Origin: Halobaculum magnesiiphilum | Lineage (GTDB): Archaea > Halobacteriota > Halobacteria > Halobacteriales > Haloferacaceae | Direction of reading: 5' to 3' | Length of the DNA: 64,000 nucleotides | Assembly (NCBI RefSeq): GCF_019823105.1 | Contig: NZ_CP081958.1 | Span: forward strand, 2,108,001 to 2,172,000 | Notes under the pieces: generated by a model | Databases searched by the model: none | What the model was told of the DNA's origin: nothing | The model's input: the letters and a program-made list of their open reading frames with translations, nothing else | Position numbers and translations under genes: made by a program | Shown: one piece after another, positions 18,855 through 36,221 of the stretch | Layout: each line of letters begins with the position of its first letter | Numbering within the stretch: the first letter of the stretch is position 1

Positions 18855-19038
18855 GAACGCGATCCACTCGGGACGTTCACGGCCGCTGTCGCGAAAGGCT
18901 TCCCTACCGTTCGTTCTCGTGCCACTAAGCACCGTATAACTATCCGCCCGTCGCCTCTCCGCTCCGAGGAATGGAGCGAGCCCCCGCCGAGTCGCATCTT
19001 CACGTTCTCAGTAGAGCTACAGGGGCGCTCTCGACGGT

Positions 19039-19884: not shown

Positions 19885-20564
19885 CCGACCGCGGGGTCGA
19901 CGACGGGACCGAACGCGCCGACGGGCGTCGGTGGCGAGTCCTCGCCGTACGCCTGATCCGTGGCGTGCTCCTCCTGGCGGGACTCGCGGTGTCGGGTGTC
20001 GGCGTCGCCGTCGTGTTCGATCCCGAGGCGGAACGACTGATCCCGGTCGAGGCGGCGATCACGACGCTCGGAAGCGACTACGTGGTCGTCGCGGTCGTCG
20101 GGCTGCTGGCAGTCGGACTCTCGGTGCTCGTCGTCGCCGCTCGCGCCGTTCGGGGCGTCGACGAGGCGGATCCACCCCTTGTCGAGGCGGTGCAGTCGGC
20201 CACCTACCCCGGCGAGCGACTGGATCGGTCCACCGGGGGGTCCGAGCACCGCCGAGCCGGGGATCCCCCGAGCGACGACCGCCGCGAGCGACTCAGCGAA
20301 GCTGCGGTTCGCGCGACGATGCGTGCGGACGGCTGCTCGCGGAGCGTCGCCGAACGACGGGTCGCCGAGGGGAGTTGGACGACCGATCCCGTTGCGGTCC
20401 GCTCGCTGTCCGACGCTCGCGACGGCGGTGGATGGGGATGGAGGGGCCGCAACGGGAGTCTGGACGCGCAGGCGGTCCGGCGAACCGTCGACGCGATCGT
20501 CCGGTTGACCGACGAGAGGGGCACAGACCGCGAAGACGAGCGTGATTCTGGGGTGAGTGAGTAG
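19881..20564 (+). CDS. DUF7269-like membrane protein
   Basis: The 227-residue protein has two membrane helices (about 20-45 and 70-92) and a long hydrophilic C-terminal half with a helical segment RLSEAAVRATMRADGCSRSVAERRVAEGSW. It lies between the DUF4129 and DUF58 genes and overlaps both, so it is part of the same machine. Function unknown. Confidence 0.65.
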   Translation: MTDRGVDDGTERADGRRWRVLAVRLIRGVLLLAGLAVSGVGVAVVFDPEAERLIPVEAAITTLGSDYVVVAVVGLLAVGLSVLVVAARAVRGVDEADPPLVEAVQSATYPGERLDRSTGGSEHRRAGDPPSDDRRERLSEAAVRATMRADGCSRSVAERRVAEGSWTTDPVAVRSLSDARDGGGWGWRGRNGSLDAQAVRRTVDAIVRLTDERGTDREDERDSGVSE

Positions 20565-22074
20565 CCCCGTGACCGGGCCCTTCGGGACGTTCAGCCGACC
20601 GTTCGCCTCTTCCCGTTCCGCTCCGAGCATCGACGCCGAGCGGACGAACGGGGCCGAGGACGGAGCCGGCGAGAACGGACAAGTCGCGAACGGCCGGACC
20701 GCGGGTGGGCAAGCCGCGGGCAGGCAGATCTCGGACGGCCGAGCAACGGAGGAGCGGACGCCGACGGTTCGGTCGACCGGTCGGTGGCGTGGCATCGTGG
20801 CCGTCGCGCTGCTCGCGGTGGCCGTCGGCGTCCTGGCGAAGCGACCCTCGCTCCTGCTGGTCGGGGCTGTCGGCGTCGCCTTCGCCGCCTACCCGCTCGT
20901 CACGGCGCCCCCCGATCCCGACCTCTCGGTGAGCCGTGTCGTCGACCCCGAGTCGCCGGCGGACGGAGACGCCGTCCACGTGCGGACGACGGTTCGCAAC
21001 GAGGGGGACGGGACGCTGTTCGATCTCCGCGTCGTCGACGGGACGCCGGCGATGCTCTCAGTTTGCGGGGGATCCCCCCGCTGTGCGACGATGCTCCGGC
21101 CGGGCGAGGAGGTGACCGTCGAGTACCGGGTGCGCGCCCGGCCGGGTCGCCACCGGTTCCAGCCGACGACGCTGCTGTGTCGCGACGCCGGCGGATCGGT
21201 CGAAGTCGAGACCGCAGTCGCCGCCGAGACGACGATCGAGTGTTCGGCCCGGGTCCCCACGGCCCCGTTGCGCGCCCGGAGCCGCCCGCGGAGCGGTCCG
21301 CTCGTCACCGACGAGGCGGGCGAGGGGATCGAGTTCCACTCCGTCACGGAGTACGAACGGGGTGACCCCGCGAGACGCATCGACTGGCGGCGGTTCGCGC
21401 GGACGGGCGAGCTCACGTCGGTGGCGTTCCGAACCGAGCGGCTCGCGGACGTGGTGATCTGCGTGGACGCACGACCCGAAGCCTACCGCGCGAGCGACTC
21501 GTCCGAACCCCACGCGGTCGCACACGCCGTGGACGCCGCCGGACGCCTCGGCGACGTGCTCTTGGACGCGAATCACCGGGTGGGCCTGGCGGCGTTTGGC
21601 CGGGCGAGTTGTCTGCTCGCTCCCGGGAACGGCGTCGATCACGCCGACCGGTTCCGTCGATACCTGGCGTCGGATCCGGCGTTCTCACTGACCCCACCGC
21701 CGTCGGTCCGCGCGAGGCGAACGCAGCCCGGCACGGACGCCGGCGACCCGCGGGCGACCGACGGCGTCATCCTGGACCGCCAGCTCTCCGAACTTCGCGC
21801 ACACGTCGGGACGAACACTCAGGTGATCCTGTTGACCCCGCTGTGTGACGACGAGGCCCATCGAATCGCCCAGCGCATCGAGAGCGACGGCCCCGCGGTG
21901 ACCGTCGTCAGCCCCGATGTCACGACCGGACGAACCCCCGGCGGCCGGCTCGCCCGGCTGGAGCGCGATCACCGCCTGACGACGCTCCGGAACGCCGGCA
22001 TCCCCGCCGTCGACTGGGACCCGGACGAGCCGCTGGGGGCGGCGCTGGCGACCGTCGAACGGGGGATCCGGTGA
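20557..22074 (+). CDS. DUF58 family protein
   Basis: The 505-residue protein has a disordered N-terminus (to about 70), two membrane helices (about 80-115), an Ig-like domain (residues about 120-230) and the DUF58 core with the marker GDPARRIDWRRFARTGELTS. DUF58 proteins have a von Willebrand A-like fold and pair with MoxR ATPases, which lies convergently downstream here. It starts at GTG 20557 within the end of the previous gene. Confidence 0.85.
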   Translation: MSSPVTGPFGTFSRPFASSRSAPSIDAERTNGAEDGAGENGQVANGRTAGGQAAGRQISDGRATEERTPTVRSTGRWRGIVAVALLAVAVGVLAKRPSLLLVGAVGVAFAAYPLVTAPPDPDLSVSRVVDPESPADGDAVHVRTTVRNEGDGTLFDLRVVDGTPAMLSVCGGSPRCATMLRPGEEVTVEYRVRARPGRHRFQPTTLLCRDAGGSVEVETAVAAETTIECSARVPTAPLRARSRPRSGPLVTDEAGEGIEFHSVTEYERGDPARRIDWRRFARTGELTSVAFRTERLADVVICVDARPEAYRASDSSEPHAVAHAVDAAGRLGDVLLDANHRVGLAAFGRASCLLAPGNGVDHADRFRRYLASDPAFSLTPPPSVRARRTQPGTDAGDPRATDGVILDRQLSELRAHVGTNTQVILLTPLCDDEAHRIAQRIESDGPAVTVVSPDVTTGRTPGGRLARLERDHRLTTLRNAGIPAVDWDPDEPLGAALATVERGIR

Positions 22075-22784
22075 CGGCCGCCACGTCGCCAGCGGACCGA
22101 TTCCTCCGGCATCCGACCGTCGTGAGCGGCGTCATCGCCGTCGCCGTCGGCGCCGTCGCGGTGGGATTGATCGCCGAGACGGCGCTCCAGCGGCGGATCC
22201 TGCTGGCGGCGCTCGTCGGCGTGGCCTCCTTCGGCCTCGGCGGCCGGCTGTGGCACCGGGGCCGCGGTGTCGCCGGCGTCGGCTTGGCGGCGTGCGGGTG
22301 CCTGGTCGTCGTCGCCGCGGCGGGCTACGCCGTCACGGAACCCCCACGGATCACTCAACGGCTCGAACTGCTGCCCGGGATACTGGGGCTGTGGGTGCTC
22401 GCCGCGGCGCTCGTGCCGATGCGGTTCCGCCGGAGTCGGCTCCTTGTCGATGTCGGGTCCGGACTGTTGTTCGTCGCGGTGCTCACGAGCGGCGTCGTCC
22501 GCGGGGCGTCCACGACGGCGCTCGTGGTCGCGGCGGGGGCGACGATCCTCGCGTGGGACGCCGCCGAGAACGCCGTGTCGCTCGGGGGGCAGATCGGTTC
22601 CCACCCTGAGACGGCCACCGTCCGGGCGGAACTCGCACACGTGCTGCTCAGCGGCGGGCTCGCCGTCGCCGCCGTCGTGGCCGTCCTCGGGGTGACCCGT
22701 CTCGGCGTCGACAGCCTCCCGCTCGCGGCCCTCGTCGCACTGCTCGTCGCCGCCGTCGCGTTGCTGCTGGCCTCCCACCGGTGA
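22071..22784 (+). CDS. polytopic membrane protein (DUF7519-like)
   Basis: The 237-residue protein is almost entirely hydrophobic, with seven or eight helices. It begins at a GTG overlapping the DUF58 stop by GTGA and closes the operon. Function unknown; its position suggests it is the membrane platform of the MoxR/DUF58 system. Confidence 0.65.
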   Translation: MTAATSPADRFLRHPTVVSGVIAVAVGAVAVGLIAETALQRRILLAALVGVASFGLGGRLWHRGRGVAGVGLAACGCLVVVAAAGYAVTEPPRITQRLELLPGILGLWVLAAALVPMRFRRSRLLVDVGSGLLFVAVLTSGVVRGASTTALVVAAGATILAWDAAENAVSLGGQIGSHPETATVRAELAHVLLSGGLAVAAVVAVLGVTRLGVDSLPLAALVALLVAAVALLLASHR

Positions 22785-22882
22785 CCGTCGTCTCCGGTTT
22801 CGCGTCGGTGGATACGGCCCCGTGGACGGGGCGCCGTTCCGGAAGCGAACGACCGTCGTTCGGCCAGGCGGTGGGTCTCGAT

Positions 22883-23836
22883 TCAGCCGTCCAGCTGCGG
22901 GACGGGCACGTCCGAGAGGATCTCCGAGACGATGTTCGTCGTCTCGACGCCGTCGACGCGAGCGTCGGGGGTGACGACGAGCCGGTGGGAGAGGACCGGC
23001 CGCGCCATCGTCTTGACGTCGTCGGGCGTCGCGTAGTCTCGTCCTTCGAGGGCGGCGTGGGCGCGGATCGTCTCGAAGAACTTCTGGACGCCCCGCGGCG
23101 AGACGCCCGTCCGGATGCGTTCGTGTTCCCGGGTCGCGCGGGCGATGTCGACGAGGTACTCGCGGACGGCCTGCTCCACGCGGACCGTCTCGGGCGCCTC
23201 CCGCAGTCGGTCGAGCCGTTCCGGGGTGCAGACCCGTTCGACCGACGCCGACTTCGACCGCCGCGACGCCCGGCGGTCGATCAGTTCGAGTTCGCCCGAC
23301 CGGTCGGGGTACCCCAGGGTGGTCTTGACCATGAACCGGTCCTTCTGGGCGACCGGGAGTTCGAACGTGCCGTCCATCTCGACGGGGTTCTGCGTCGCGA
23401 TGACGACGAACGGGTCGGGGAGCGCGTACGCGTCGCCGTCGACGGTGACCTGTCCCTCCTCCATCGCCTCCAGCAGCGCCGCCTGCGTCTTCGGCGGGGC
23501 GCGGTTGATCTCGTCACCCAGCATGACGTTCGCGAAGACGGGCCCGGGGCGGAACTCGAACTCCCGCGTCGCCTCGTCGAAGACGTTCGAGCCGACGACG
23601 TCCGAGGGAAGGAGGTCGGGCGTGAACTGCACGCGCGAGAACGACACGCCGAGCGCGTCCGCGAACGACCGCGCGGTGAGCGTCTTTCCCGTCCCCGGGA
23701 CGTCCTCGAGCAGGACGTGCCCGTCCGCGAGGATCCCGACGAGGATGGTCCGCAGCGTCGACCGCTCGGTGACGACGGCGCCGGCGATCTGATCGAGGAG
23801 TTCCTCACACTGTCGCCGTACGGCCTCCGGTTCCAT
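22883..23836 (-). CDS. MoxR-type AAA+ ATPase
   Basis: The 317-residue ATPase has Walker A EDVPGTGKTLTARSFA (about residues 43-58), Walker B VMLGDEINRAPPKTQAALLEAM, sensor region FVVIATQNPVEMDGTFELP, and the C-terminal helical lid. MoxR ATPases act as chaperones that mature or switch extracellular or envelope protein complexes together with DUF58/VWA proteins. It is convergent with the DUF58 operon rather than co-directional, so its expression is separate. Confidence 0.93.
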   Translation of the reverse strand: MEPEAVRRQCEELLDQIAGAVVTERSTLRTILVGILADGHVLLEDVPGTGKTLTARSFADALGVSFSRVQFTPDLLPSDVVGSNVFDEATREFEFRPGPVFANVMLGDEINRAPPKTQAALLEAMEEGQVTVDGDAYALPDPFVVIATQNPVEMDGTFELPVAQKDRFMVKTTLGYPDRSGELELIDRRASRRSKSASVERVCTPERLDRLREAPETVRVEQAVREYLVDIARATREHERIRTGVSPRGVQKFFETIRAHAALEGRDYATPDDVKTMARPVLSHRLVVTPDARVDGVETTNIVSEILSDVPVPQLDG

Positions 23837-23948
23837 GGCCTGTGGTGGGCCATCGACGGGATTGTTATCCCCTCGATACGCGAAATAGGGAGACCCGATC
23901 CAGAGTGCGACGTGCCGGGGAACGCGGTCGAGTGTTCAGTTCCGGATG

Positions 23949-23956
23949 ATTTATTC
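23949..23956 (+). promoter_or_regulatory. TATA box of the AI-2E family transporter gene
   Basis: ATTTATTC is centred 28 nt before the ATG at 23980, indicating leaderless initiation. Confidence 0.6.
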
Positions 23957-23979
23957 GAGACACGTGAGCGGATCTACAC

Positions 23980-25194
23980 ATGAACGAGAAGCGTCTCGTC
24001 GTCGCGCTGTTCGGGCTCGCGGTCGCGGTCGTCATCGGAGCGCTCGCGTACCGCTTCATCGCGGCGTTCACCGTCTCGGTGTTCCTCTACTACTCGACGA
24101 GACGGTATCACCGCTTCCTGGCGCGGTTCCGGCTCCCGCCCCGCGTCCGGGCCGGGATCGTGCTCGCGTCGCTGGCGATCCCGTTGATCCTGCTCATCAG
24201 CTACGCGGGGGTCCTGCTGGTCGTCGAGGCGAGACAGTTCGTCGCCGACACCGCGCTGGTGAGCGCGGCGGCCTCGAACATCGCGTGGTTCGCCGCGATC
24301 GAGCGCATCCCCGAGTTCACCGTCCAGGGGATCTACGAGGCGTACCGGTCTGGCGATCTGGAGCCGTTCGTCGAGTTCGCGACCGACAACGCCACCTTCC
24401 TCACCCAGGTCGTCTCGGAGTTCGTGCTCAACCTGTTCGTCGTCACCATCGTCACCTACTACCTGCTCGTCGACGGCGACCGCATCAGCGACTGGCTGCT
24501 CCGGTTCGACGACGACGCGATCGTCCGCGAGTACCTGGAGGCCGTGGACCGCGAGCTGGAGGCGGTGTTGTTCGGCAACCTCCTGAACGTGGTCGCCATC
24601 TCGCTCATCGCGATCGCGACGTTCAGCGCGTACAACGCCCTCGTCCCGGTGGGCGTCCGCGTGCCGTACCCGGCGCTTGCTGGCGCGCTCACGGGGATCG
24701 CGAGCCTCGTCCCCATCGTCGGCATGAAGATCGTCTACCTCCCGGTGACGGCGGCGATGGCGGTCCCGCCGCTGCTCGACGGGTCGTTCTCGGAGCTGGG
24801 GTACGTGTTCGCCTTCCTCGTCGTCGCGGTGGTCGTCGTCGACACGATCCCGGACCTCGTGCTCCGGCCGCTGTTGAGCGGCGACGAGACCCACGTCGGC
24901 CTGCTGATGCTCGCGTACACCCTCGGCCCGGTGGTACTCGGCTTCTACGGGCTGTTCTTCGCGCCGATCGTGCTCGTGATCGGGCTGACGTTCGCGAACA
25001 CCGCCCTCCCGCGGCTGCTCGGCGCCGACGACGCCCAGACGACGCTGACCGATTCCGACGCCGAGGACGGGGGCGACCCCGAGGACGACGACCGCGGGCG
25101 CGACGACGATTCGAGCCCGGGTATCGACGGGGACGCCGGCGCGGGTGTCGACGAGGGTGCCGACGCGGGCGTCGACCCCGATCCGACCGGGTGA
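23980..25194 (+). CDS. AI-2E family transporter / UPF0118 permease
   Basis: The 404-residue protein has about eight helices in the arrangement of the AI-2E (PerM/TqsA) family, with the typical VVTIVTYYLLVDGDRI and LLMLAYTLGPVVLGFYGLFFAPI segments. Family members export small molecules or act as Na+(Li+)/H+ antiporters; none is pinned down here. The last 60 residues are a hydrophilic, Asp-rich tail. Confidence 0.85.
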   Translation: MNEKRLVVALFGLAVAVVIGALAYRFIAAFTVSVFLYYSTRRYHRFLARFRLPPRVRAGIVLASLAIPLILLISYAGVLLVVEARQFVADTALVSAAASNIAWFAAIERIPEFTVQGIYEAYRSGDLEPFVEFATDNATFLTQVVSEFVLNLFVVTIVTYYLLVDGDRISDWLLRFDDDAIVREYLEAVDRELEAVLFGNLLNVVAISLIAIATFSAYNALVPVGVRVPYPALAGALTGIASLVPIVGMKIVYLPVTAAMAVPPLLDGSFSELGYVFAFLVVAVVVVDTIPDLVLRPLLSGDETHVGLLMLAYTLGPVVLGFYGLFFAPIVLVIGLTFANTALPRLLGADDAQTTLTDSDAEDGGDPEDDDRGRDDDSSPGIDGDAGAGVDEGADAGVDPDPTG

Positions 25195-25278
25195 GTTCCA
25201 CCGGCCGTCATCGGGGCGGGGGAGCCGGAAGCTGTCGAAGAACAAGACACTTGTCGCGCTCGCGTGCACGTCCGTCCG

Positions 25279-25959
25279 ATGGTCTCCTCCGAACTCACTC
25301 GACGACGAACCCTCCTCGGCGCCGCCGGGGCGCTCGCCGCGCTCGCGGGCTGTAGCGGGAGCGGCAGCGCCGGCGACGACGTGACGCCGACCGAGCCGGC
25401 ACGCGACCCGTTCGACCCCGACTCGGTGCCGGCGCATCGGCGCCTCCGCGGGGCGACCGACGGGCCGCTGGTGTGGATCCCCGACGAGACGCGGACCCGG
25501 ACGGACGGCGAGCCTCGGCGCCGACTACCGACGTTCGTCACGTCCCGCGAGGAGGTCGACCGGCTGCGGTTCGCCGACGTGGACGGCGTCGAGGCCGCGC
25601 GGTCGTTCCTCGCGGAGACGACGTTCGACACGGAAACGATCTACCTCGAAGAGTTCTCCGTCCGTCGCTGCTACGAGCTTCAGCTGTGCGACGTGTCGTG
25701 GTCGGAGACCGACATCGACACGCAGTTCGGCCGGGTGCTCCGCGACGCGGACGTGGCGTGCGAGCCAGACGCCCGCGACGCGACGGCGTGGCTCGTCCGG
25801 CTCCCCGAGGCGCTCGACCCCGACCGGATCACGAGCTACGGCTCGGGCGTGAGCGGGAGCTCGTGTGGCGAGCGGAGGCGCCGGCCCGAGCGCGGGCAAC
25901 CGATCACCGCCGACGCGGTCCCGGCGTCGAACGCGACCGCGGAGGGCGACGATGCGTGA
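25279..25959 (+). CDS. cysteine-containing Tat lipoprotein of unknown function
   Basis: The 226-residue product starts VSSELTRRRTLLGAAG with a lipobox AGC at about residue 24. The mature domain has four cysteines in RRCYELQLCDVSW, DVACEP and SSCGERRR, which could form two disulfides. No enzyme motif is recognisable. The stop overlaps the ATG of the next lipoprotein gene by 8 nt, so the two are coupled. Confidence 0.6.
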   Translation: MVSSELTRRRTLLGAAGALAALAGCSGSGSAGDDVTPTEPARDPFDPDSVPAHRRLRGATDGPLVWIPDETRTRTDGEPRRRLPTFVTSREEVDRLRFADVDGVEAARSFLAETTFDTETIYLEEFSVRRCYELQLCDVSWSETDIDTQFGRVLRDADVACEPDARDATAWLVRLPEALDPDRITSYGSGVSGSSCGERRRRPERGQPITADAVPASNATAEGDDA

Positions 25960-27274
25960 GTCGCCCGGGCGGACGCGCCGCGCGGTCCTCGCGGGCGCGG
26001 GAGCCGCGGTCACGGCGTCGCTCGCGGGCTGTTCGGGGCTCCCGTTCGGCGAGTCACGGACGACGGTCACGGGCGAGCAGGTCTCCGCGATCCTCGCCGA
26101 GGAGCCGCCGTCGATCCCCGACCGACTCCCGGTCGCGTTCGCGGCGTCGTACCTCGACGGGACCGAATCCGACCTGGAGTCGGCGCTTGCGTCGGTTCCG
26201 GCGCCGTTCGACGCCGCCGCGGTCCCCAACGGCGCGATGCGCGACCACCTCAACCGGAGCGCGGCGGCCGCACGCGAGGCGCTCGCGGGCGCCGACGAGG
26301 AACCGACGCCCACGGAACGCGCCGGGAGCCTCCGGCACGCCCGCCGGGAGATCGGATACGTCGCCGGCGGCTGGGCGGCGATCGACGGCGACCGAACGAT
26401 CCCCGACGTGCGGGACGACGGGGAAGCGCTTCGCGAGGAGCTGGGCGCGTTCCGGGACCGGTGGGCGCACCTCGGCGCGGACGCGATCGAGGCGGCCGTC
26501 GTCAACGACGCGATCGCGGGGCTCGTCCGGTCGTGTATCGGCGACCTGAACCGCGTGCTGACGACCGAGGAGCGCGACACGACGACCGCGCTCGACGTGG
26601 CCGAGGCGGACGAGCACCTGGCGTCCGCCCGCGGGGAACTCCGTGACGCGGCTCACCTCCTCGACCGCCTCCGCGGAGGCGACGGGGTACGGGACCGTCG
26701 GGACGCGCTCGCAAGCGCGGCCGACGCGCTCGTCGACCACGTGGGCGAGCGCCGCATCGACGCCGGGCTCGACGAGGGGCCCTTCACTGCGGAGGCCGAC
26801 CGGGAGGCGCCGCCCGCCGAGCGGGCGCTGCGCGACCTTCGGGATGACGTTCGCCGCGGCGATCTCGGGGAGACGCTGGAATCCGGAGCGTTCCCACAGA
26901 CGATCGTCGGGGCACACGGAACGCTCGCGCAGATCGGCGCCGTCGAGACGCTCCGGTCGCGGGTCGATTCGGGGGAGGCGATCGACCCCGCGTCGGCGGC
27001 GGACGTCGACACGATGCGTACCCGTGCCAGGGAGGCGGTCGTGACGGTTCACGAGGAAGGGGAGTACCCGCGGCTCGACCGGCTGCAGACCCACCGGCTC
27101 GCGGCCGTGCTGCGGTACGTCGACGAGCGGCTGGCGCGCGTCGACGCCGACGACGAGGTCGCGCTCTCGCGGCTGGACTGGGAGCTGCGCGACCTCGTCC
27201 GGGCCGAGGCGGTCGCGCGGTCGGTCGGCGACGCCAGCGTCGCGGTGGCACGGGCGCTCGGCGAGGCCGACTAG
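25952..27274 (+). CDS. helical Tat lipoprotein of unknown function
   Basis: The 440-residue protein has a Tat signal (SPGRTRRAVLAGAG) and lipobox AGC around residue 27, then an all-helical, Ala/Arg/Asp-rich extracellular domain with long coiled-coil-like stretches. It overlaps the preceding lipoprotein gene, so the two probably form one complex at the cell surface. Function unknown. Confidence 0.6.
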   Translation: MRESPGRTRRAVLAGAGAAVTASLAGCSGLPFGESRTTVTGEQVSAILAEEPPSIPDRLPVAFAASYLDGTESDLESALASVPAPFDAAAVPNGAMRDHLNRSAAAAREALAGADEEPTPTERAGSLRHARREIGYVAGGWAAIDGDRTIPDVRDDGEALREELGAFRDRWAHLGADAIEAAVVNDAIAGLVRSCIGDLNRVLTTEERDTTTALDVAEADEHLASARGELRDAAHLLDRLRGGDGVRDRRDALASAADALVDHVGERRIDAGLDEGPFTAEADREAPPAERALRDLRDDVRRGDLGETLESGAFPQTIVGAHGTLAQIGAVETLRSRVDSGEAIDPASAADVDTMRTRAREAVVTVHEEGEYPRLDRLQTHRLAAVLRYVDERLARVDADDEVALSRLDWELRDLVRAEAVARSVGDASVAVARALGEAD

Positions 27275-27316
27275 CGCGGGAACGTCGCCCCGTCGGTCGG
27301 CCGTCGGCGCGAGGTA

Positions 27317-27472
27317 TTACGACTCGCGTTCGGTGTCCTGTGTGACGATCAGGTCGAACGGGGTGTCGGCGGGTTCGTCGTCGGGCGTGAGATATCTGCG
27401 GCGAACCCCCTCCCCGTCGAGGGACCGATCTGTGGCGCCTGTCTCGTCCCCGCGACGGTCAGCAGGTGGCGG
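27317..27472 (-). pseudogene. orphaned C-terminal gene fragment
   Basis: On the minus strand an open frame ending in TAA at 27317-27319 encodes a tail with normal haloarchaeal composition (YLTPDDEPADTPFDLIVTQ, then DTERES). It opens after a TGA at about 27472 and has no ATG or GTG anywhere in frame. This looks like the 3' end of a gene whose 5' part has been lost. It sits exactly at the left edge of the amidase/S-layer region, so the loss may have accompanied an insertion. The parent family is not recognised. Confidence 0.4.
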
Positions 27473-27518
27473 AGTTCAGGACGGCACGGCTTGTACCGAT
27501 CCCGGGCCGTAGCCGGTG

Positions 27519-27529
27519 AATAGTTATTT
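27519..27529 (+). promoter_or_regulatory. TATA region of the amidase gene
   Basis: AATAGTTATTT is centred about 20 nt before ATG 27544 and about 31 nt before an in-frame GTG at 27556. The spacing fits the GTG better for a leaderless transcript, so the true start may be four codons downstream of the ATG. Confidence 0.5.
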
Positions 27530-27543
27530 GCTATCACAACTCA

Positions 27544-29082
27544 ATGGTTGTTTTCGTGTCAGAATCTCCACCGAACGTCCGTCCGCCGACTACCGAAGAG
27601 ATCCGAGAACTCGCCGAACAGCATCACATGTCGCTGTCGGACGACGAGGTCGCCGACTTCGCGGCGATCATCGAGGGGATGTTGGACGGGTACGAGCGGA
27701 TCGACGAACTGTCGGCGCCGACGCCGGAGGTGAAGTACCACACCCGCGATCCGGGCTACGAGCCCGACGCCGAGGAAGACCCGCTCAACGCGTTCGTCCG
27801 GAAGTGTGAGGTACAGGGCGCGGACGGGGGACCACTCGCCGGCTACGAGGTCGGGCTCAAAGACTCCGTGTCGCTCGCGGGCGTCGAGATGACGCTCGGC
27901 TCGAAACTGTTCGAGGGGTACGTGCCGTCCACGGACGCGACGATCGTCACACGACTGCTCGATGCCGGCGCGACGATCACGGGGAAGCTCAACATGGAGG
28001 ACATGGCGCTGTCCGGGAGCGGCGAGCTCTCGGCGACCGGTCCCGTGCTCAATCCCCGCGATGACGACTACATCGCAGGCGGATCCTCCAGCGGGAGTGC
28101 GGCCGCGGTCGCGACGGGGGACGTCGACGTCGCCATCGGCGGCGACCAGGGCGGGTCGATCCGGATCCCTGCTTCGTGGAGCGGGATCGTCGGCCACAAA
28201 CCCACACACAGCCTCGTTCCCTACACCGGCGTCGCCGGACTCGGTCGCTCGTTCGACCACGTCGGCCCGATGTGCTCGACGGTCGAGGACTGTGCGCTCA
28301 TGCTCGACGTGCTCGCGGGCGCCGACGGGCTCGATCCGCGACAGGGTGCCGTCCCCACCCAGCACTACAGCGAGGCGCTCGGGGTAACTCCGAGCGAGAT
28401 CACCGTCGGGGTGCTACAGGAGGGCTTCGGCCACGAGCAGAGCGAACCGGGCGTCGACGAGACGGTCCGTACCGCGCTCGATGCGTTCGAAGCGGCCGGC
28501 GCGGAGGTGGTCGACGTCTCGGTGCCGATGCATCTCGACGGCCTGCCGATCTGGAACGCGATCGGCCTCGAAGAGATCACTGCGACGGTCAACGCCGAGT
28601 GTGTCGGCCACTACGGGAAGGGCTTCTACGACACGCAGTTCGCGGACGCGTTCGGTCGTGCTCGCCGATCTCAGGCGGACGATTACCTCACGACGATGAA
28701 GCTCACGCTGATCGCCGGACAGTACCTGTCAAACGAGTACCGGGGGCACTACCACGCCAAGGGACAGAACCTCGCTCGCAAGCTCACCGACGCCTACGAC
28801 CAGGCGCTCGAGGACGTCGACGTGCTCGCGATGCCGACGACACCGCAGACTGCTCACGAGGTCGATCGCGACATCTCGCGGGTCGAAGCGATCGACCGAG
28901 CGCTCGACATGCTCTCGAACACGGCGCCGTTCGACAACACCGGCCACCCGGCGATCAGTGTGCCCGCAGGGCAGTCGGATGGCCTTCCGGTCGGCGTGAT
29001 GTTCGTCGGCGACAGCTTCGACGACGCGACCGCGCTGGCGAGTGCGCACGCCTTCGAGCAGCACGTCGAGGTAACGTTGTAG
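27544..29082 (+). CDS. amidase signature family hydrolase
   Basis: The 512-residue enzyme has the Ser-cisSer-Lys triad of the amidase signature family: Lys in [11 protein letters not shown], the Gly/Ser loop [15 protein letters not shown] and the nucleophile Ser in [16 protein letters not shown]. It has an N-terminal helical extension (residues about 15-60) seen in aliphatic amidases linked to nitrile or indoleacetamide metabolism. The substrate is unknown. No nitrile hydratase or GatC gene is adjacent, so it is not the GatA subunit. Codon use is less GC-biased than in neighbouring housekeeping genes. Confidence 0.88.
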
Positions 29083-29315
29083 CGGTCGCACTTCGCCACC
29101 GGCGCGAGAGACGGCGATCGGCTGATCCGGAGGGCGATCGCGAGGCCGGACGACTTCTACTGATCGAAGAGATCGTCGAGGTTGGCCGCAAGCGAGCAGC
29201 AAGGTGAACTCGAAGTATTTCTATTCCGTTGAAAGTGGGTCCTCTCCCACGGCAATCGGATATATTCGTCTTTACCTGGCTACAAAGAATTAACCCTGTC
29301 CGATCGATGTACTGG
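29083..29315. other. 233-nt gap upstream of the S-layer paralogue promoter
   Basis: Nothing convincing is coded here. Its right end carries the core promoter of the S-layer paralogue: AATTAAC (29288-29294) about 26 nt before the expected transcription start. A second AT-rich element, GGATATATTC (29258-29267), lies 26 nt further upstream. Confidence 0.4.
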
Positions 29316-29426
29316 GTACCCCTATCAGATGACGCTCTCGCGTATTCCTCGCAACCGGCACAGGAACTGCGTCGAGATCCGGACGAATCGCGGTGAAACC
29401 ACGTCGCAGTACGACTTCGATAGCTC
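29316..29426 (+). promoter_or_regulatory. 111-nt 5' leader of the S-layer paralogue, with uORF
   Basis: From the predicted start at GTACCCCT (29316) to the ATG (29427) is 111 nt. The leader shares ordered blocks with the leader of the downstream S-layer gene: GTACCCCTA at the start, TATTCCTCGC (29343), and GCAGTACGACT (29406) exactly 21 nt before the ATG. It contains an ATG at 29329 opening a 33-codon frame whose TGA (29428-29430) overlaps the S-layer start as ATGA. H. salinarum csg mRNA is known for a long leader of similar size, in contrast to most leaderless haloarchaeal mRNAs. Confidence 0.55.
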
Positions 29427-29430
29427 ATGA
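29329..29430 (+). CDS. possible upstream ORF (33 codons) overlapping the S-layer paralogue start
   Basis: The frame reads MTLSRIPRNRHRNC and onward to YDFDSS, then TGA overlapping the ATG at 29427. It begins 13 nt after the predicted transcription start. Translation is not shown by sequence alone; it could couple or regulate the downstream start. Confidence 0.3.
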   Translation: MTLSRIPRNRHRNCVEIRTNRGETTSQYDFDSS

Positions 29431-31010
29431 CAGACCCAACTCTCAGAACCCGTGCATTGCTCTTGGCCGCGGTGGTGGTGTTCAGCGTCTTCGCTGGCAC
29501 TGCCGCCGCGGGAACTGCAGCCGGGGCTCCCACCGCTTCAGCGGGAACCCTCAGTGACGTACCTCCCGTCCGAGACCCCGGATCGACGGGCGCGTCCGTT
29601 CAGGTGAGTACGCACACCGACAGCCCGCATCGGCCCACAACGCTCGTCCAAAGCGACGGCGACAGCGAGGTCAACCTCTCGGAGGGTTCCATCGAGGTTC
29701 CACGAGGCGGGATCGCGACGTTCACCGTGCGGCTGAACGACTCCGGTAGCTCCGCGACGGTCGTCATCGGCAACGAGAGCGAGGACGGCTATCAGGCCAA
29801 CGTCTCGGTCACCGACGCCAACGACGACGGGGAAGTTACCTTCGCGTTCAACACCTACACGGCGGGCAACACCTCGGCCGGTACCGTCGTCCGGTTGGTC
29901 GGCGACAGCGAATCCGACCGGATCACGTTCGACAGCACTGAGAGCCAGACCGGGTTGAATTCCCTCCTCGACACCGGCGACTACCTCGTCGCGGTCGGGA
30001 CGAACGACGACCCCGCCGCCGTTCTCGAAACGCCGGACTTCGTCGGGGCGCTGTTCGTCGCTGAGCGTTCGGACCCGTCACAAACGCTCTGGCGGACGAC
30101 GCAGGACACGCTCTCGGACGTTCGGGAGGCTAGCGACAACGAGACCCGCTCTGCGGTGACGAGCGTCGGCGACGCCATCGTGAACGAACGACTGACGCGG
30201 ACCGACACGCTGGCGTTCACACCCAACGATTCGAACAGCGACGTGCTCGTCACCGAGCTCTCCGTGCCAGGGCTGTCCGGAATGCTCGGCACAGTCAGCG
30301 GCGGTGAGGTCACGGACGAGTTCACTGCAGCCATCCGGTCGAACAACTCCTCCGATGCCCCGTTTCGTGTCGTCCTTGCGGAGCAGAATCCGGGGCTGAA
30401 CCGGGAGCCCGTTACGCTCGACCTCGGCGAGACGCTCTCTGCAGGGACGGGGATCGACGACGCGCTCACGGTCGTCTACGCCGGCGGGGACACGTTCTAC
30501 GTGTTCGTGGACTACGACGCCGTGGCCGCCAGCACGGTCGACGGAACGGATTCCGCCTTCGAGGACGGCGACGAGATCGCCGTCAACGGTACCTTGCAGG
30601 ACGCGCGCCTGCTCGACATCGATCCGAACGAGACGGATGCCTCGGAGGGTGCATCCCGGTATCCGACCGCTTCGGCGACCTTCACGCTCGAAGCGGCCGA
30701 CGGTGAGTTCGATGTCAACGAGGACGACCTCGTGACGACGACGGCCGGCGAGAACGCGACGATCACCGGAACGACGAACGTCGCGCCGGGGACGGAGTTG
30801 ACGGTCGTCATTCGCTCGGGCGAAGAAGTTCAAGCGGCGTTCCTCGAGAGCCAGACAGTCACCGTCGGTAGTGACGGGACGTTCACGGCATCGTTCAATT
30901 TGAGCGCGCAAGCTCCCGGAGATACGTTCGAAGCGGAGGTCACGCAGGGACCCTTCACGACGGCGTCCGAGGGGGTGATCGTCGAGGAGAACGCGACGGA
31001 GGCATCGTAA
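29427..31010 (+). CDS. S-layer glycoprotein paralogue without C-terminal anchor
   Basis: The 527-residue protein has a haloarchaeal surface-glycoprotein signal peptide (TRALLLAAVVVFSVFAGT, the TIGR04207 type) and then aligns with roughly residues 410-840 of the full S-layer protein encoded next: LSEGSIEVPRGGIATF, EDGYQANVSV, VTFAFNTYTAG, SLLDTGDYLVAV, TNVAPGTELTVV. It lacks the first ~370 residues (Ig-like domains) and also the Thr-rich stalk and PGF-CTERM tail, ending GVIVEENATEAS. About a dozen N-x-S/T sequons are present. It may be secreted freely, or sit in the S-layer by protein contact. Codon use is more GC-biased than in the major S-layer gene, suggesting lower expression. Confidence 0.85.
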   Translation: MTDPTLRTRALLLAAVVVFSVFAGTAAAGTAAGAPTASAGTLSDVPPVRDPGSTGASVQVSTHTDSPHRPTTLVQSDGDSEVNLSEGSIEVPRGGIATFTVRLNDSGSSATVVIGNESEDGYQANVSVTDANDDGEVTFAFNTYTAGNTSAGTVVRLVGDSESDRITFDSTESQTGLNSLLDTGDYLVAVGTNDDPAAVLETPDFVGALFVAERSDPSQTLWRTTQDTLSDVREASDNETRSAVTSVGDAIVNERLTRTDTLAFTPNDSNSDVLVTELSVPGLSGMLGTVSGGEVTDEFTAAIRSNNSSDAPFRVVLAEQNPGLNREPVTLDLGETLSAGTGIDDALTVVYAGGDTFYVFVDYDAVAASTVDGTDSAFEDGDEIAVNGTLQDARLLDIDPNETDASEGASRYPTASATFTLEAADGEFDVNEDDLVTTTAGENATITGTTNVAPGTELTVVIRSGEEVQAAFLESQTVTVGSDGTFTASFNLSAQAPGDTFEAEVTQGPFTTASEGVIVEENATEAS

Positions 31011-31370
31011 CAGCAATCAACCTGATTACGTGAGGACCTACTCACAGGCTCTCGTTGACGTGGCGCGATCGAGATGCTGAAACTGCGCACTACTTAGAGA
31101 ATGTCTCGCACTCGCGTACGTGGATTTGTTCGCTTGGAGGCATCTTCGAGAGGCGAACCGTTCTCGACGGACGTGAGCGATACTTGGCTCGATACGATCC
31201 GCCTTCGTCCGGGACGCGCGCGAGCCGAACCCGACCCAAATCCTCCGCGGCGCCGTGGCACCTCCGCCCACGATCCTCCACAAAGTACTTATTCGCGGTT
31301 CGGGCGAGAACCCCCGACACGCCCGAATTCTGGTGTGTGAAGCGTTGACGCGCCCCCGGATTTACCACAA
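31011..31370. other. 360-nt gap between the two S-layer genes
   Basis: Short frames on both strands here have no credible start or composition, and no remnant of a PGF-CTERM tail follows the stop of the upstream paralogue. I see nothing coded. Confidence 0.5.
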
Positions 31371-31373
31371 GAC

Positions 31374-31382
31374 ATTTATAAG
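31374..31382 (+). promoter_or_regulatory. TATA box of the major S-layer gene
   Basis: ATTTATAAG is the strongest TATA element in the window. It is centred about 26 nt before GTACCCCT (31403), the predicted transcription start. The stretch between (GTCCGAT ... GTA) is shared with the paralogue's promoter. Confidence 0.75.
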
Positions 31383-31402
31383 GTCCGATGTTGGTAACGA
31401 CC

Positions 31403-31520
31403 GTACCCCTACCCATGGTGACAGCAGATAGTATCCCTCGCCGAGTCCGCTTCGCGGGCGTTCTGGAGCAGGCGTGGGCGAACGGTGTTGTCGCCGCTTG
31501 CAGTGCGACTACAGCAAACC
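31403..31520 (+). promoter_or_regulatory. 118-nt 5' leader of the major S-layer gene, with uORF
   Basis: The leader runs from GTACCCCT (31403) to the ATG at 31521. It repeats the blocks of the paralogue leader in the same order and spacing: TATCCCTCGC (31432), GCAGTGCGACT (31500), with the last again exactly 21 nt before the ATG. An ATG at 31415 opens a 39-codon frame ending at TAA 31532-31534, just inside the S-layer gene. Confidence 0.6.
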
Positions 31521-31534
31521 ATGACAGAAACTAA
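31415..31534 (+). CDS. possible upstream ORF (39 codons) overlapping the S-layer start
   Basis: The frame starts MVTADSIPRRVRFAG and ends NHDRN. Only the IPR near its start matches the uORF of the paralogue, and the two uORFs end in different frames relative to their S-layer genes, so the RNA may matter more than the peptide. Confidence 0.3.
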   Translation: MVTADSIPRRVRFAGVLEQAWANGVVAACSATTANHDRN

Positions 31535-34274
31535 CAACAAGATCCGCGCGCTGTTCCTGACAGCGCTGATGGTGTTCAGCGTCTTCGCTGGCACTGTCGC
31601 GTTTACAGGGACGGCTGCTGCGGCTAATGCTACACTCTCGGGCGTTGATTCGAGTGTGCAAGCAGGCAACGACATTACGTTCGATGCTTCAGCCGCGAAT
31701 GCGGACAACATTACGGTATGGATCGATGAAAATGAGGACAATGCCCTGAACTCGTCGGAGGTCAACGACACGTTCACTGGGGCATCCGTAACTGACGGCA
31801 CCCTGACTGTTCCGTCGGACCTTCCTGAGGGAGACTACGTTCTCGCCGCGGCTGAGAACACTAGCTCCCCCACCACGGCCGACGATACATTCACGTTCAC
31901 GGTAGACAACTCGGGGCCGTCGGTCAACAGCGTTGTCCACTACGACAATGACACGTCCTCCGGCGAGGACGGCGAGCTTGAGATCGCGTTCAGCGAGAAT
32001 ATCAGCTCGGGCACCATCACGCTCTACGATGAGGATGGTTCCGTCGTTGACACCCCCTACTCCGTCAGCGGCAACATGAACAACGGCCAGTTCCTCGTCG
32101 ATGTTGCTGGCGATGTCAACCCGCGTGTTGATGTCGTCAACATCGACGTTGAGGACTCCGCCGGTAACGCGATCTCTGACAACTTCAGTGTCACGTTCGC
32201 GTCCACGACGATCAAGAACGTCACCAACAACGACGCGACCGCGTTCGAGGGTTCGACCGTCGCTGTCGTCGACAGCACCGGTCTCGACAGCTCCGTTGAA
32301 GTCACGGGTCCCAACGACTTCTTCTTCAGCGGAACGACCGGCACCAACAGCCAGGTCTACACCTTCGACACGGGCGACCGTGACCTGGGTGACTACAACG
32401 TTACCTTCTCGTCCGGCCCTGACCAGATCCTGACGCTGCGGAACCTCGGTCTGGACGCCTCGGTTGACGAGGAGAACATCACGGTCGAGGAGGCCCTGAC
32501 GGGCGAGATCAGCGCCAACAACGGCAACCGCGACGTTGACGTTGATGTCCTCGACTCCGACGACGATGTCGTCGCCGAGGACACCGTCACGCTCGACGGC
32601 TCCGGTAACGGCGCCTTCGACGCCGGTACGCTCGAAGACACGGGCGATTACACGGTCGAGGTCACGGACGTTGCGACTGGCGTCACCGTGACGGCCGGTA
32701 ACGTCACCGTCAACGAGGCTGAGGAAGGCGAGGCCGCGCTCAGCGAGGGCACGGTCACTGTCACGCAGGGTGACAACGCCCAGTTCACCGTCGAGTTCTC
32801 CGGTGGCGCCACCGAGGGCACGGTCCTCATCGGCGACATCGAAGAGGACGGATACCAGGCCAACGTCACCGTCACTGAGGACAGTGACGACGACCAGGTC
32901 ACCTTCACGTTCAACACCTACACTGCCGGCGGTGCCGGGACGACCGTGTCCCTTGCTGGCGACAGCGTGGGCACTGACGACGAGGTTACCCTGACCAACG
33001 ACGGTGACGCAGACTACGAGCAGCTCTCGGATATCCTCGACACTGGCGACTACATCGTCAGTACGAGCACGGGCGACGCGGTCGCGACGGCCGACAGCCC
33101 CGACGAGGTCGGTACGCTCATCATCGAGCAGCGTGAGGCGCCGAGCCAGCAGCTCTGGCGCACGAGCGACACCACGCTCGAAGCTGTCGCTGATGCAATC
33201 GACGACGAGGACGAGGACGAGGTTGCGGCCATCACCTCGGCCGTCGAGAACGACCAGGTCACGCAGACTGACACGGTCGCCATCGACCCCGACGGCTCGA
33301 TGGACGACATCTTGGTCCACCAGGTCACTGCGCCCGGTCTCGAGGGTCTCCTCGACGATGTGAGCGCGGACGGCGACTCCACGACGGAGGCGCTGTACCA
33401 GGCTACGCAGGAGACCAACGACTACGGCCAGCCCGCGGTTGAGATCCTCTTCGAGGAGACCAACCCCGGCTCGAACGCCGAAGCGACCTCGCTCAACGTG
33501 AGCACGCTCACCGCGAGCGAGGCCACCAGCGCACTGACGGTCGTGTACGACGACAGCTCGTCGAACTACTACGTCTTCGTTGACACGGCCGCCCTCGAGG
33601 ATGCTGGCTTCGAGGACGGTGACAACGTTGAGACCGACATCAACGTCCAGAGCGACCGCCTGCTCGACATCGACGATGATGTCGACGCAGAGGGAGCTGA
33701 AGACGAGTACCAGACCGCTGCGGCCAACTTCAGCGTCGAAGAGGCCGACGGTAGCTTCGACGTGAACGAGGACGACGAGGTTGAGGCAGTTGCCGGCAAC
33801 GCGTCCATCACGGGTACGACGAACGTCGCGCCCGGGACGGAGTTCACGGTGCGTGTCCAGTCGACCGAGGAGACGCAGCCGCGCTTCATCGAGACGCAGA
33901 CCGTGACCGTCCAGGCGGACGGCACGTTCGAGGCGACCTTCAACCTGAACGACAACGCTGCCGGTGACACCTTCACCGCTAGCGTCCGTCAGGCTGGCTT
34001 CTCCGCGTCGGCTGACGGTGTCCTCGTCGAGAGCGTCTCGACGCCGACGGCCACGCCGGACGACGGCACGCCGACGGACACCGCGACACCGGACGACGGT
34101 ACGCCGACGGCCACCGCGACGCCTGACGAGGGCACGCCGACGGCCACCGCGACGCCTGACGAGGGCACGCCGACGGCGACCCAGACGTCCACGTCGACGC
34201 CCGGCTTCGGTGCCGTGCTGGCAGTCATCGCCCTCATCGGCGCTGCGCTGCTGGCGGTCCGCCGCGACAACTAA
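31521..34274 (+). CDS. S-layer glycoprotein with PGF-CTERM anchor
   Basis: The 917-residue protein is the cell-surface S-layer glycoprotein. It has a surface-glycoprotein signal peptide (IRALFLTALMVFSVFAGT, mature from about ANATLSG), Ig-like domains to about residue 370, the S-layer core (about 390-840), a Thr/Pro-rich stalk of repeats and a PGF-CTERM tail: STPGFGAVLAVIALIG, hydrophobic helix, RRDN. About sixteen N-x-S/T sequons (for example NAT just after the signal, NIT, NVT, NIS) are potential AglB glycosylation sites, and the Thr stalk fits O-glycosylation. Archaeosortase A cleaves PGF-CTERM proteins and permits lipid attachment; artA is 950 nt downstream. Codon bias is that of a very highly expressed gene. 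Confidence 0.95.
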   Translation: MTETNNKIRALFLTALMVFSVFAGTVAFTGTAAAANATLSGVDSSVQAGNDITFDASAANADNITVWIDENEDNALNSSEVNDTFTGASVTDGTLTVPSDLPEGDYVLAAAENTSSPTTADDTFTFTVDNSGPSVNSVVHYDNDTSSGEDGELEIAFSENISSGTITLYDEDGSVVDTPYSVSGNMNNGQFLVDVAGDVNPRVDVVNIDVEDSAGNAISDNFSVTFASTTIKNVTNNDATAFEGSTVAVVDSTGLDSSVEVTGPNDFFFSGTTGTNSQVYTFDTGDRDLGDYNVTFSSGPDQILTLRNLGLDASVDEENITVEEALTGEISANNGNRDVDVDVLDSDDDVVAEDTVTLDGSGNGAFDAGTLEDTGDYTVEVTDVATGVTVTAGNVTVNEAEEGEAALSEGTVTVTQGDNAQFTVEFSGGATEGTVLIGDIEEDGYQANVTVTEDSDDDQVTFTFNTYTAGGAGTTVSLAGDSVGTDDEVTLTNDGDADYEQLSDILDTGDYIVSTSTGDAVATADSPDEVGTLIIEQREAPSQQLWRTSDTTLEAVADAIDDEDEDEVAAITSAVENDQVTQTDTVAIDPDGSMDDILVHQVTAPGLEGLLDDVSADGDSTTEALYQATQETNDYGQPAVEILFEETNPGSNAEATSLNVSTLTASEATSALTVVYDDSSSNYYVFVDTAALEDAGFEDGDNVETDINVQSDRLLDIDDDVDAEGAEDEYQTAAANFSVEEADGSFDVNEDDEVEAVAGNASITGTTNVAPGTEFTVRVQSTEETQPRFIETQTVTVQADGTFEATFNLNDNAAGDTFTASVRQAGFSASADGVLVESVSTPTATPDDGTPTDTATPDDGTPTATATPDEGTPTATATPDEGTPTATQTSTSTPGFGAVLAVIALIGAALLAVRRDN
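34051..34176 (+). repeat. 33-bp tandem repeats encoding the S-layer stalk
   Basis: A partial 27-bp unit (34051-34077) is followed by three 33-bp units (34078-34110, 34111-34143, 34144-34176). The last two are identical. Each unit encodes T-A-T-P-D-(D/E)-G-T-P-T type sequence, the probable O-glycosylated spacer between the S-layer core and the membrane anchor. Confidence 0.85.
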
Positions 34275-34284
34275 CTAACCACGA

Positions 34285-34335
34285 CTGACCGGGCGTAACC
34301 CGGTCACCTTCCGCTTCACGCGGACCCTTTCTTTC
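34285..34335 (+). terminator. hairpin plus pyrimidine tract after the S-layer gene
   Basis: TGACCGGG-CGTAA-CCCGGTCA forms a perfect 8-bp stem with a 5-nt loop (34285-34305), 10 nt after the stop, followed by a pyrimidine-rich run ending CCCTTTCTTTC. This would cut the S-layer transcript off from the genes downstream. Confidence 0.65.
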
Positions 34336-34450
34336 GACGCGCTCATGTCGGCCAGCGGCGGCGCCGTCGATCGGACCGACACCGACACAGATGAGCGACC
34401 GGCTTCCATGTGCCGCAACATGTATGAGACGGTGACCCGTATCGCTACTC

Positions 34451-34723
34451 ATGGCGACCGACGGCTCCCCGGAAGAAACGACCGTCAGCGATACGGGAAT
34501 GGTAACCATCCCGGCATCACTTCGGCGACGGCTCGACATCGAGGCGGGGGATAAACTCCGGTGGAACGTCGACGAGGAGGGGCAGCTCTCGATCGAGGTC
34601 GTTCGACAACGCTACGGCGCGTTTGAGGACGACGACCGGAAGGCCGACATGGGCGGTGACAGTCTGGAAACGCACGACGCCTCCGGATACGAGGTGGACT
34701 CCGCGTTCGCGGAGGACGCCTGA
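34451..34723 (+). CDS. SpoVT-AbrB family antitoxin
   Basis: The 90-residue protein has an AbrB DNA-binding fold: VSDTGMVTIPASLRRRLDIEAGDKLRW. The C-terminal half is acidic and probably folds on the toxin. It overlaps the following PIN gene by one base (TGATG), the usual antitoxin-first order, and is expected to autoregulate the pair. Confidence 0.82.
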   Translation: MATDGSPEETTVSDTGMVTIPASLRRRLDIEAGDKLRWNVDEEGQLSIEVVRQRYGAFEDDDRKADMGGDSLETHDASGYEVDSAFAEDA

Positions 34724-35154
34724 TGCCCCACGCAGTCGTCGATTCCAACGTTCTCATCGACTACAAGGACACGAGTGCGGACGACCGCCACGAGCGTGCC
34801 GAAGCGATCGTCCTCGGTATCGATCGAGGCGAACTCCCGACTACTCGGGTGACGAACTACGTCCTGTTGGAGTCGCTGAACTGGATTCACGAACGGCGAC
34901 GACACGATATCGCGGTCGACCTCCGGAACCGACTCTCCGCTTCGGCGGGATTCGAATTGGTTCATTCCGCACAGGCGGATTTCCACCGGGCAGTCGAGTT
35001 GTTCGAGACATACGACGGGATCGCGTTCGGTGATGCGACGCTCGTCGCGTACATGGAGCGGGTGGACATCGACTACCTGTATTCGTTCGACGATGACTTC
35101 GACGCGATCGAGTGGATCACTCGACTGGACACACCGAACGACCCACGCCAGTAG
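34723..35154 (+). CDS. PIN-domain ribonuclease toxin (VapC-like)
   Basis: The 143-residue protein has the PIN acidic residues: Asp in VVDSNVLIDY, Glu in YVLLESLNWI, and Asp in IAFGDATLVAYM and YSFDDDFDAI. VapC-type PIN enzymes cleave tRNA or rRNA; the target here is unknown. It is paired with the AbrB antitoxin in front and lies between the S-layer gene and artA. Confidence 0.85.
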   Translation: MPHAVVDSNVLIDYKDTSADDRHERAEAIVLGIDRGELPTTRVTNYVLLESLNWIHERRRHDIAVDLRNRLSASAGFELVHSAQADFHRAVELFETYDGIAFGDATLVAYMERVDIDYLYSFDDDFDAIEWITRLDTPNDPRQ

Positions 35155-35191
35155 CTGCGCCTCGGCACCCACGACACACGAGACGACAAGG

Positions 35192-35199
35192 GCTTTACC
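35192..35199 (+). promoter_or_regulatory. TATA box of artA
   Basis: GCTTTACC is centred 28 nt before the ATG at 35223, so artA has its own leaderless promoter and is not dependent on the toxin operon. Confidence 0.6.
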
Positions 35200-35222
35200 C
35201 GACAGCGCCGATCCACGAACGA

Positions 35223-36221
35223 ATGGCGAGCATCTACACCGACCTGCTGGGGTGGGTGGTGATCGCGACGTTCCTCGCGGGCGCGGGCGTCGAGTACGTC
35301 CGACGCAACCGCGTCGGCGACGACGCGGGCGCGCTGGCGACCCTCCGACGCCGCCTCGACGCCTCCGAGACCCCGCCCGAGCGCACGCTCGCGACCGCGG
35401 GGTGGGTGCTGTTCGCCGCCTTCTGGCTCGCGCTGTTCCCGCACTTCGCGTTCACGCAGAAGAGCTACGTCGAGGGGGTGCTCTCGCTGCTCGCGGTCCC
35501 CGCGTGTCTGTACGCCGGGTGGCTGCTGTGGAACGGCCGCGACTCGCTGCTGGTGCTCTCGCGGGCGGTAGCCGCGATGGGAGTCGTCTACTTCCCGTTC
35601 GAGTCGATCGAGGTGCTCAAGCGGACGCTGATCCTCGTCGTCACCGGACAGACCGGCTGGGCGATGGCGCAGTTCGGCTACGAGCCCGCGCTGGTCGAGG
35701 GGCCGATCCTGGGGTATCAGAATGCGTATCGGTTCGTCACGGCCGACGGACACGGCCTCCTGTTCGAGGTCGTCCTCGCGTGCACCGGGCTGGGGAGCAT
35801 GGCGATCTTCGCGGGGCTCATCGCCGCGGTGCGTGCCCCCCTCGGCCGGAAGCTGCGCGCGCTGGCCGTCTCCATCCCGATCATCTGGCTGCTCAACATC
35901 GCCCGGACCACGTTCATCGGGATCACCTTCGGCAACCAGTATCTCCAGCTGTTCGTCGACGAGGTGCTGTTCCTGTTCGGCTCCTCGGACCCGTACATGG
36001 TGTCGTTTTTCCTCTCAGACCGGGTGATATCGCAGGTGCTCGCCGTCGTCGCGCTCGTCGGGATCACCTACCTCGTCGTTCGCGAACTCCCCGAACTCGT
36101 CACCGTGATCGAGGACGTGCTGTACATGATCACGAAGGAGGAGTACGACCTGCTGGAGTCGCTGGACCTGCCGCGAGAGCCAGTTCGGGCGGATGGCGGT
36201 CGAGACGTTGACGATCGGTAG
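35223..36221 (+). CDS. artA: archaeosortase A
   Basis: The 332-residue polytopic protein is the exosortase-like transpeptidase that processes PGF-CTERM proteins. The catalytic residues are visible as Cys187 (VVLACTGLGSM), Arg228 (LLNIARTTF) and Arg267 (LSDRVIS). The spacings C-41-R-39-R are identical to those of the characterised Haloferax volcanii enzyme (C173, R214, R253). The C-terminal cytoplasmic tail of about 50 residues ends DVDDR. It lies 950 nt downstream of its main predicted substrate, the S-layer glycoprotein; BtuF in this window is a second substrate. Confidence 0.95.
   Translation: MASIYTDLLGWVVIATFLAGAGVEYVRRNRVGDDAGALATLRRRLDASETPPERTLATAGWVLFAAFWLALFPHFAFTQKSYVEGVLSLLAVPACLYAGWLLWNGRDSLLVLSRAVAAMGVVYFPFESIEVLKRTLILVVTGQTGWAMAQFGYEPALVEGPILGYQNAYRFVTADGHGLLFEVVLACTGLGSMAIFAGLIAAVRAPLGRKLRALAVSIPIIWLLNIARTTFIGITFGNQYLQLFVDEVLFLFGSSDPYMVSFFLSDRVISQVLAVVALVGITYLVVRELPELVTVIEDVLYMITKEEYDLLESLDLPREPVRADGGRDVDDR

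Follow-up and report, generated by a model that had tools for sequence, protein, structure and literature searches.

An anchorless S-layer paralogue clade in Halobaculum and its possible role outside the lattice

The S-layer biology of haloarchaea has so far been read from anchored lattice proteins. In csg, the S-layer protein of Haloferax, the structural report (PMC8640222) describes D1 as forming and lining the hexamer pore and D1-D2 as a dome, and assigns the contacts between hexamers to D4, D5 and D6. D5, the penultimate domain, carries an alpha-hairpin whose divalent cations hold the trimer contact. Another described protein that invites comparison is Hlac_3088 of Halorubrum lacusprofundi, which is reported to be S-layer-like but too small for an S-layer protein and is proposed to interfere with virus attachment (PMC10544981). 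In the literature searched, mostly outside subscription papers, we found no description of an anchorless S-layer paralogue.

Here we analyzed a window of 64,000 nucleotides from Halobaculum magnesiiphilum (NZ_CP081958.1, positions 2,108,001 to 2,172,000), which encodes an S-layer paralogue, P0001, beside an anchored S-layer glycoprotein, P0002. Tail-less copies of P0001 occur in 3 of 11 genomes of the genus: H. magnesiiphilum itself, Halobaculum saliterrae WSA2 (G008) and the metagenome-assembled genome (MAG) QS_6_71_20 (G009). We hold it about evenly probable that these three proteins form an S-layer paralogue clade of single origin that left the lattice for another extracellular role, as secreted and soluble proteins. 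Such a clade would be a natural separation-of-function set, in which the inter-hexamer domains are kept and neither anchor, hexamer domain nor charged hairpin survives. It could show if soluble functions at the cell surface can draw on S-layer domains, and which contacts a lattice needs.

Domain anatomy of the anchorless protein

P0001 consists of a putative signal peptide, a linker and the Ig-like domains D4 to D6, and has no D1, D2-D3, Thr stalk or PGF-CTERM tail (Table 1). The initial annotation had recognized a surface-glycoprotein signal and an S-layer core. In profile searches, DUF7827 (PF25162) scored 94.7 bits and the BGTF surface domain (NF045517) 79.3 bits, in agreement with the core, and the TIGR04207 signal peptide model scored 23.5 bits, slightly below its cut-off of 24.6. 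The same signal peptide model scored 28.8 bits in the H. saliterrae orthologue (L022) and gave no match to the G009 copy at E 0.05. The start codon is ATG, and an in-frame stop two codons 5' of it makes the choice of start nearly forced. Over the whole protein, P0001 reaches 153.6 bits against NF041335, the model for ArtA-dependent haloarchaeal S-layer glycoproteins, which is below the equivalog cut-off of 1100; the anchored P0002, at 463.3 bits, likewise falls below this cut-off, which is therefore a strict one.

The annotation had also placed the stop before any Thr stalk or PGF-CTERM tail, with no remnant following. This holds, since a three-frame translation of 30950-31560 contained neither a PGF tail nor a Thr stalk, and no PGF tail was found in three frames after the stops of P0001, L006 and L009. 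PGF-CTERM scored 44.3 bits in P0002 and had no match in P0001. Hydropathy revealed no membrane segment beyond the signal peptide of P0001, and the protein lacks any cysteine and so cannot be a lipoprotein. Fourteen N-glycosylation sequons are present. The anatomy thus supports the earlier proposal that the protein is probably secreted and unanchored.

P0001 aligns with residues 404-837 of P0002 at 46% identity (448 columns, E 1e-100), and its putative signal peptide is of the same type. They differ in that the NF041335-like P0002, with 917 residues, has N-terminal domains, a stalk, PGF-CTERM and a conserved leader. The predicted structure of P0001, built from an alignment of 21 rows, has a mean pLDDT of 77.9 and a pTM of 0.76. 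Its domains span about residues 80-192, 205-423 and 426-520, with limits read from strand order, and two helices in the second domain (226-237 and 243-252) make up an alpha-hairpin, 226-252. Neither P0001 nor P0002 had a match in a PDB sequence search at the limits used, and csg was not among the best 50 Foldseek rows for P0001, which were unrelated Ig-like proteins. In a second structural comparison, csg (7ptp) was the best match, with residues 81-524 of the model aligning to csg 385-759 (Z 11.9, rmsd 5.2, 307 residues). P0002 aligned from residue 238 onward with csg 140-759; here csg stood in row 11, its Z tied with complement proteins but with a lower rmsd and a longer alignment.

From this mapping we infer that the first domain of P0001 is D4, and the model and structural match equate the first Ig-like domains, which the annotation had noted as missing, with csg D1-D3. 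Like csg, P0001 has its Ig-like domains arranged D4, D5, D6 and an alpha-hairpin in the penultimate one; unlike csg, it has no D1-D3, Thr stalk or PGF-CTERM, and its hairpin is of low net charge. No D1 hexamer domain was found in P0001, where about 45 residues of low-confidence linker are all that stands before the first domain. The pLDDT of this linker is mostly below 50, its identity to the orthologue is 33%, and its similarity to D1-D3 of two anchored relatives did not rise above that of shuffles.

The D5 hairpin carries a net charge per 100 residues of -7.3 in P0001 and of -4.9 to -10.0 across the three anchorless proteins, compared with -22 to -37 in 12 of the 13 anchored members of the genus, the exception being the anchored protein of G001 (-12.5). 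When family matches were ranked from the least acidic hairpin (127 of 128 were measurable), the anchorless three took ranks 1, 3 and 4, and the median of the other 124 was -25. The charge of D6 in P0001 is unchanged. Because cations on the csg hairpin hold the trimer contact, the loss of charge suggests that this contact may be gone, although low charge alone is no proof of a lost lattice contact, given that it is also seen in the anchored G001 protein and in some other anchored family members.

Table 1. Coordinates of the S-layer locus features within the window
Feature	Coordinates	Strand	Basis
Region upstream of P0001, without S-layer leader and TATA-like motifs	29237..29426	+	motif comparison
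Anchorless S-layer paralogue P0001, 527 aa	29427..31010	+	DUF7827 and BGTF matches, alignment to P0002
P0001 surface-glycoprotein type signal peptide region, residues 1-34	29427..29528	+	TIGR04207, hydropathy
P0001 linker replacing D1-D3, residues 35-79, evolving fast	29529..29663	+	low pLDDT, low identity
P0001 Ig-like domain D4, residues 80-192, DUF7827	29664..30002	+	PF25162, model, csg match
P0001 Ig-like domain D5, residues 205-423	30039..30695	+	model, csg match
P0001 D5 alpha-hairpin segment, residues 222-262, reduced negative charge	30090..30212	+	model, charge count
P0001 Ig-like domain D6, residues 426-522, BGTF surface domain	30702..30992	+	NF045517, model, csg match
P0002 leader/promoter region, conserved	31331..31520	+	comparison with anchored genus genes
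Anchored S-layer glycoprotein gene P0002, 917 aa, PGF-CTERM	31521..34274	+	profile search, structural match
Archaeosortase A (artA)	35112..36221	+	TIGR04125, 327.9 bits (cut-off 75)

Distribution, selection and genomic setting

The relatives of P0001 emerged from a contig scan with alignment A1; a scan with P0001 alone found none. The H. saliterrae copy matches P0001 at 71% identity throughout, with its stop about 20 residues further on. Two extra domains are present in the G009 copy, where they correspond to residues 156-370 and 175-377 in two anchored relatives, and only D1 and the tail are missing there. D1 and the archaeosortase tail are thus absent from all three proteins, and D2-D3 from two of them; D4-D6 and a signal-like segment at the N-terminus are kept in all. 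A family search across 170 genomes, in which the best eight or fewer candidates per genome were scored, yielded 128 matches in 81 genomes, 119 of them with PGF in the last 60 residues. The nine tail-less matches comprise the anchorless three, four that run off contig ends and two with runs of N or a broken frame, leaving the three as the only genuine cases among the 128 matches listed. A domain search of the 11 genus genomes returned 30 places, none of which was a further anchorless candidate by open-frame size, with small-protein tails read for L004, L005 and L019.

In a tree of 40 cores, the three anchorless proteins form one clade (support 100/100) that lies inside the type I group and adjoins the anchored proteins of G002 and G004. 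The resident anchored S-layer proteins of G008 and G009 fall in the other large group, and the G009 anchored core is 35% identical to P0001. The anchorless gene has thus outlasted, or never depended on, the S-layer type of its host. The clade comprises three sequences of single origin, one of them from a MAG, and traits common to the three are not independent, since the changes arose on one branch.

Comparison with the H. saliterrae copy gave dN 0.170, dS 0.444 and dN/dS 0.38 over 523 codons (dN 0.102 and dS 0.347 for residues 75-200). Of the sites at which six anchored type I proteins do not vary, fifteen are altered in all three anchorless proteins, six of these to an identical residue, and 85 others are retained. 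The gene is best read as an old and selectively kept one, and probably no recent wreck. A frameshift or assembly error was ruled out, since the frame is intact and both the independently assembled H. saliterrae gene and the G009 copy are tail-less as well. The comparison of the locus in relatives, which the annotation had called for, therefore turned up neither a frameshift restoring a PGF-CTERM tail nor decay in related strains; the gene's relatives are retained in two other genomes.

No copy was found in 8 of the 11 genus genomes, including that of the close relative G006. Identity between the window and G006 is 91-97% at 17549-27256 and along three stretches from 35174 to 55346, and 27257-31214, which holds an amidase gene and the anchorless gene, has no counterpart there. 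The presence of the anchorless gene therefore varies within the genus, and its absence from G006 between such similar flanks marks it as dispensable. Most of the central part of the anchored gene could not be aligned to G006, apart from one 238-base piece at 68%, and the leader and tail are conserved. This pattern gives the appearance of S-layer allele exchange within 27257-34362, in which the conserved leader and tail may have served as recombination handles. Exchange of S-layer genes by recombination is known in Haloquadratum (PMC4535781). A functional unit with the amidase gene (27544-29079) was considered and ruled out, because in relatives its close orthologues (87-93%) are found at other places, whether or not the genome has an anchorless gene.

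Two of the three genomes have the anchorless gene directly upstream of an anchored gene and in the same orientation; in G008 it is located elsewhere, beside other genes. Both the leader motif CCCCTACCC and a TATA-like motif stand upstream of 13 of 13 anchored genus genes and of none of the three anchorless genes. The leader region of P0002 is 83-92% identical in 8 of the 12 other anchored genus genes and 44-56% identical in the remaining four. Likeness of codon use to S-layer genes is 0.57 for P0001, compared with 0.57 for artA, 0.62 for the amidase gene and 0.72 for an AI-2E-type gene. The greater distance of P0001 codon use from S-layer genes is a weak sign that its expression may be lower; the G009 copy, at 0.72, shows no such departure.

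Archaeosortase A belongs to the enzyme family that processes PGF-CTERM tails. Its gene is found close downstream of an anchored S-layer gene in 10 of the 11 genus genomes; the exception is G007, where neither of two S-layer genes has it nearby. The interval that separates the S-layer gene from artA in the window holds an AbrB-type gene followed by a PIN-like gene (34451-35154), a toxin-antitoxin-like arrangement whose orthologues also lie near artA in G009; the PIN-like gene had no profile match and owes its label to reading of the sequence. In G009, an orphan PGF-CTERM tail (L068, about 4900-5070) follows the anchored S-layer gene, after a toxin-antitoxin-like pair, and not the anchorless gene. 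The H. magnesiiphilum genome also has a second full-length anchored S-layer gene with its own leader (G000:C1:2408500-2409870, L002).

Possible roles of the anchorless clade

If the clade has left the lattice, P0001 would be exported via Sec, would not be anchored by archaeosortase and would not be built into a csg-like hexamer. The free protein would be expected either in the medium or beneath the S-layer, which in csg has narrow pores, and presumably at a level below that of the S-layer protein. It would then act as a soluble, N-glycosylated Ig-array protein that most likely binds a surface or extracellular partner and is no lattice building block. Since D4-D6 are the inter-hexamer contact domains of csg, their retention fits a lattice partner too.

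The main rival, though an unlikely one, is that free D4-D6 uses its D4/D6 dimer face to dock where the anchored lattice has edges or gaps. As P0001 can add neither D1 nor a functional trimer contact, docking would cap, plug or loosen the lattice. The retention of three domains that mediate inter-hexamer contacts in csg, the unchanged D6 charge and, in two of three genomes, a position just 5' of the anchored gene all speak for this reading; however, G008 and G009 have an anchored protein of another type, which makes a matching interface doubtful, the hairpin charge is lost, and the G008 gene is located elsewhere, beside other genes. The earlier suggestion of a minor lattice component is conceivable, yet disfavored because the clade is kept in two genomes with an S-layer of the other type. 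Quite unlikely, in our estimate, is the related idea of a soluble modulator whose D4-D6 binds the lattice without extending it and caps edges or opens gaps, for example at sites of growth or division.

The annotation had also raised a decoy function, in which secreted P0001 would bind viruses that use the S-layer as receptor. The virus and Haloquadratum background comes from PMC10544981, PMC9973310, PMC8875312 and PMC4535781. For HRTV-DL1, HFTV1 and HRPV-6, the reported receptor or fusion trigger is an S-layer protein, and surface decoys have been proposed for Haloquadratum. However, the published escape-mutant changes (PMC10544981, PMC9973310) fall at residues 45-46 and 209-210 in two S-layer proteins from Halorubrum and at 237-246 in the Haloferax one, which by position would lie N-terminal to the part kept in P0001. 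Moreover, D1-D2, the dome of csg, is missing from P0001, and the same sources indicate that triggering of HRPV-6 may need a multimeric array. We therefore regard a decoy role as improbable. Hlac_3088, for which interference with virus attachment has been proposed, differs from P0001 in having a PGF motif and a membrane segment and is described as a transposon passenger.

We consider it just as improbable that P0001 is a decaying duplicate without function. Losses of the leader motif, anchor and domains, the lack of a copy in eight genus genomes including that of the close relative, and a less S-layer-like codon use would all fit decay, but the intact frame, the dN/dS of 0.38, the common derived residues and the survival of three long-separated copies argue against it. 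Storage of S-layer sequence for recombination into the expressed gene appears very improbable: the S-layer locus does seem to swap alleles, but 46% protein identity to the anchored neighbor is low for gene conversion, and P0001, with a start and a putative signal peptide of its own, has neither of the conserved segments, leader and tail, along which alleles were apparently exchanged. We give hardly any credence to an alternative S-layer expressed under other conditions, as the annotation had also suggested, because P0001, which retains a putative signal peptide and the core, has no D1, no anchor, a weakly acidic hairpin and no S-layer leader motif, and the second full-length anchored gene at G000:C1:2408500 already fits such a role.

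Related proteins on plasmids and in the genus

Carriage of the anchorless gene by viruses or plasmids was rejected, as no relative appeared in the viral scan and the relatives on three plasmids are full-length, two of them ending in a PGF tail and the third in a plain membrane segment. Among these, the Halorubrum lacusprofundi plasmid pR1SE2 (L224, 2756-5638) encodes a full-length PGF-anchored S-layer relative, and the Haloferax mediterranei plasmid pHME505 (L226, 1711-4449) a BGTF protein that ends in a membrane segment lacking PGF. Within the genus, L004 and L019 encode very small proteins that combine one BGTF (D6-type) domain with a PGF tail; they have this domain type in common with P0001 and differ from it in their open frames of less than 200 residues and in the presence of the tail.
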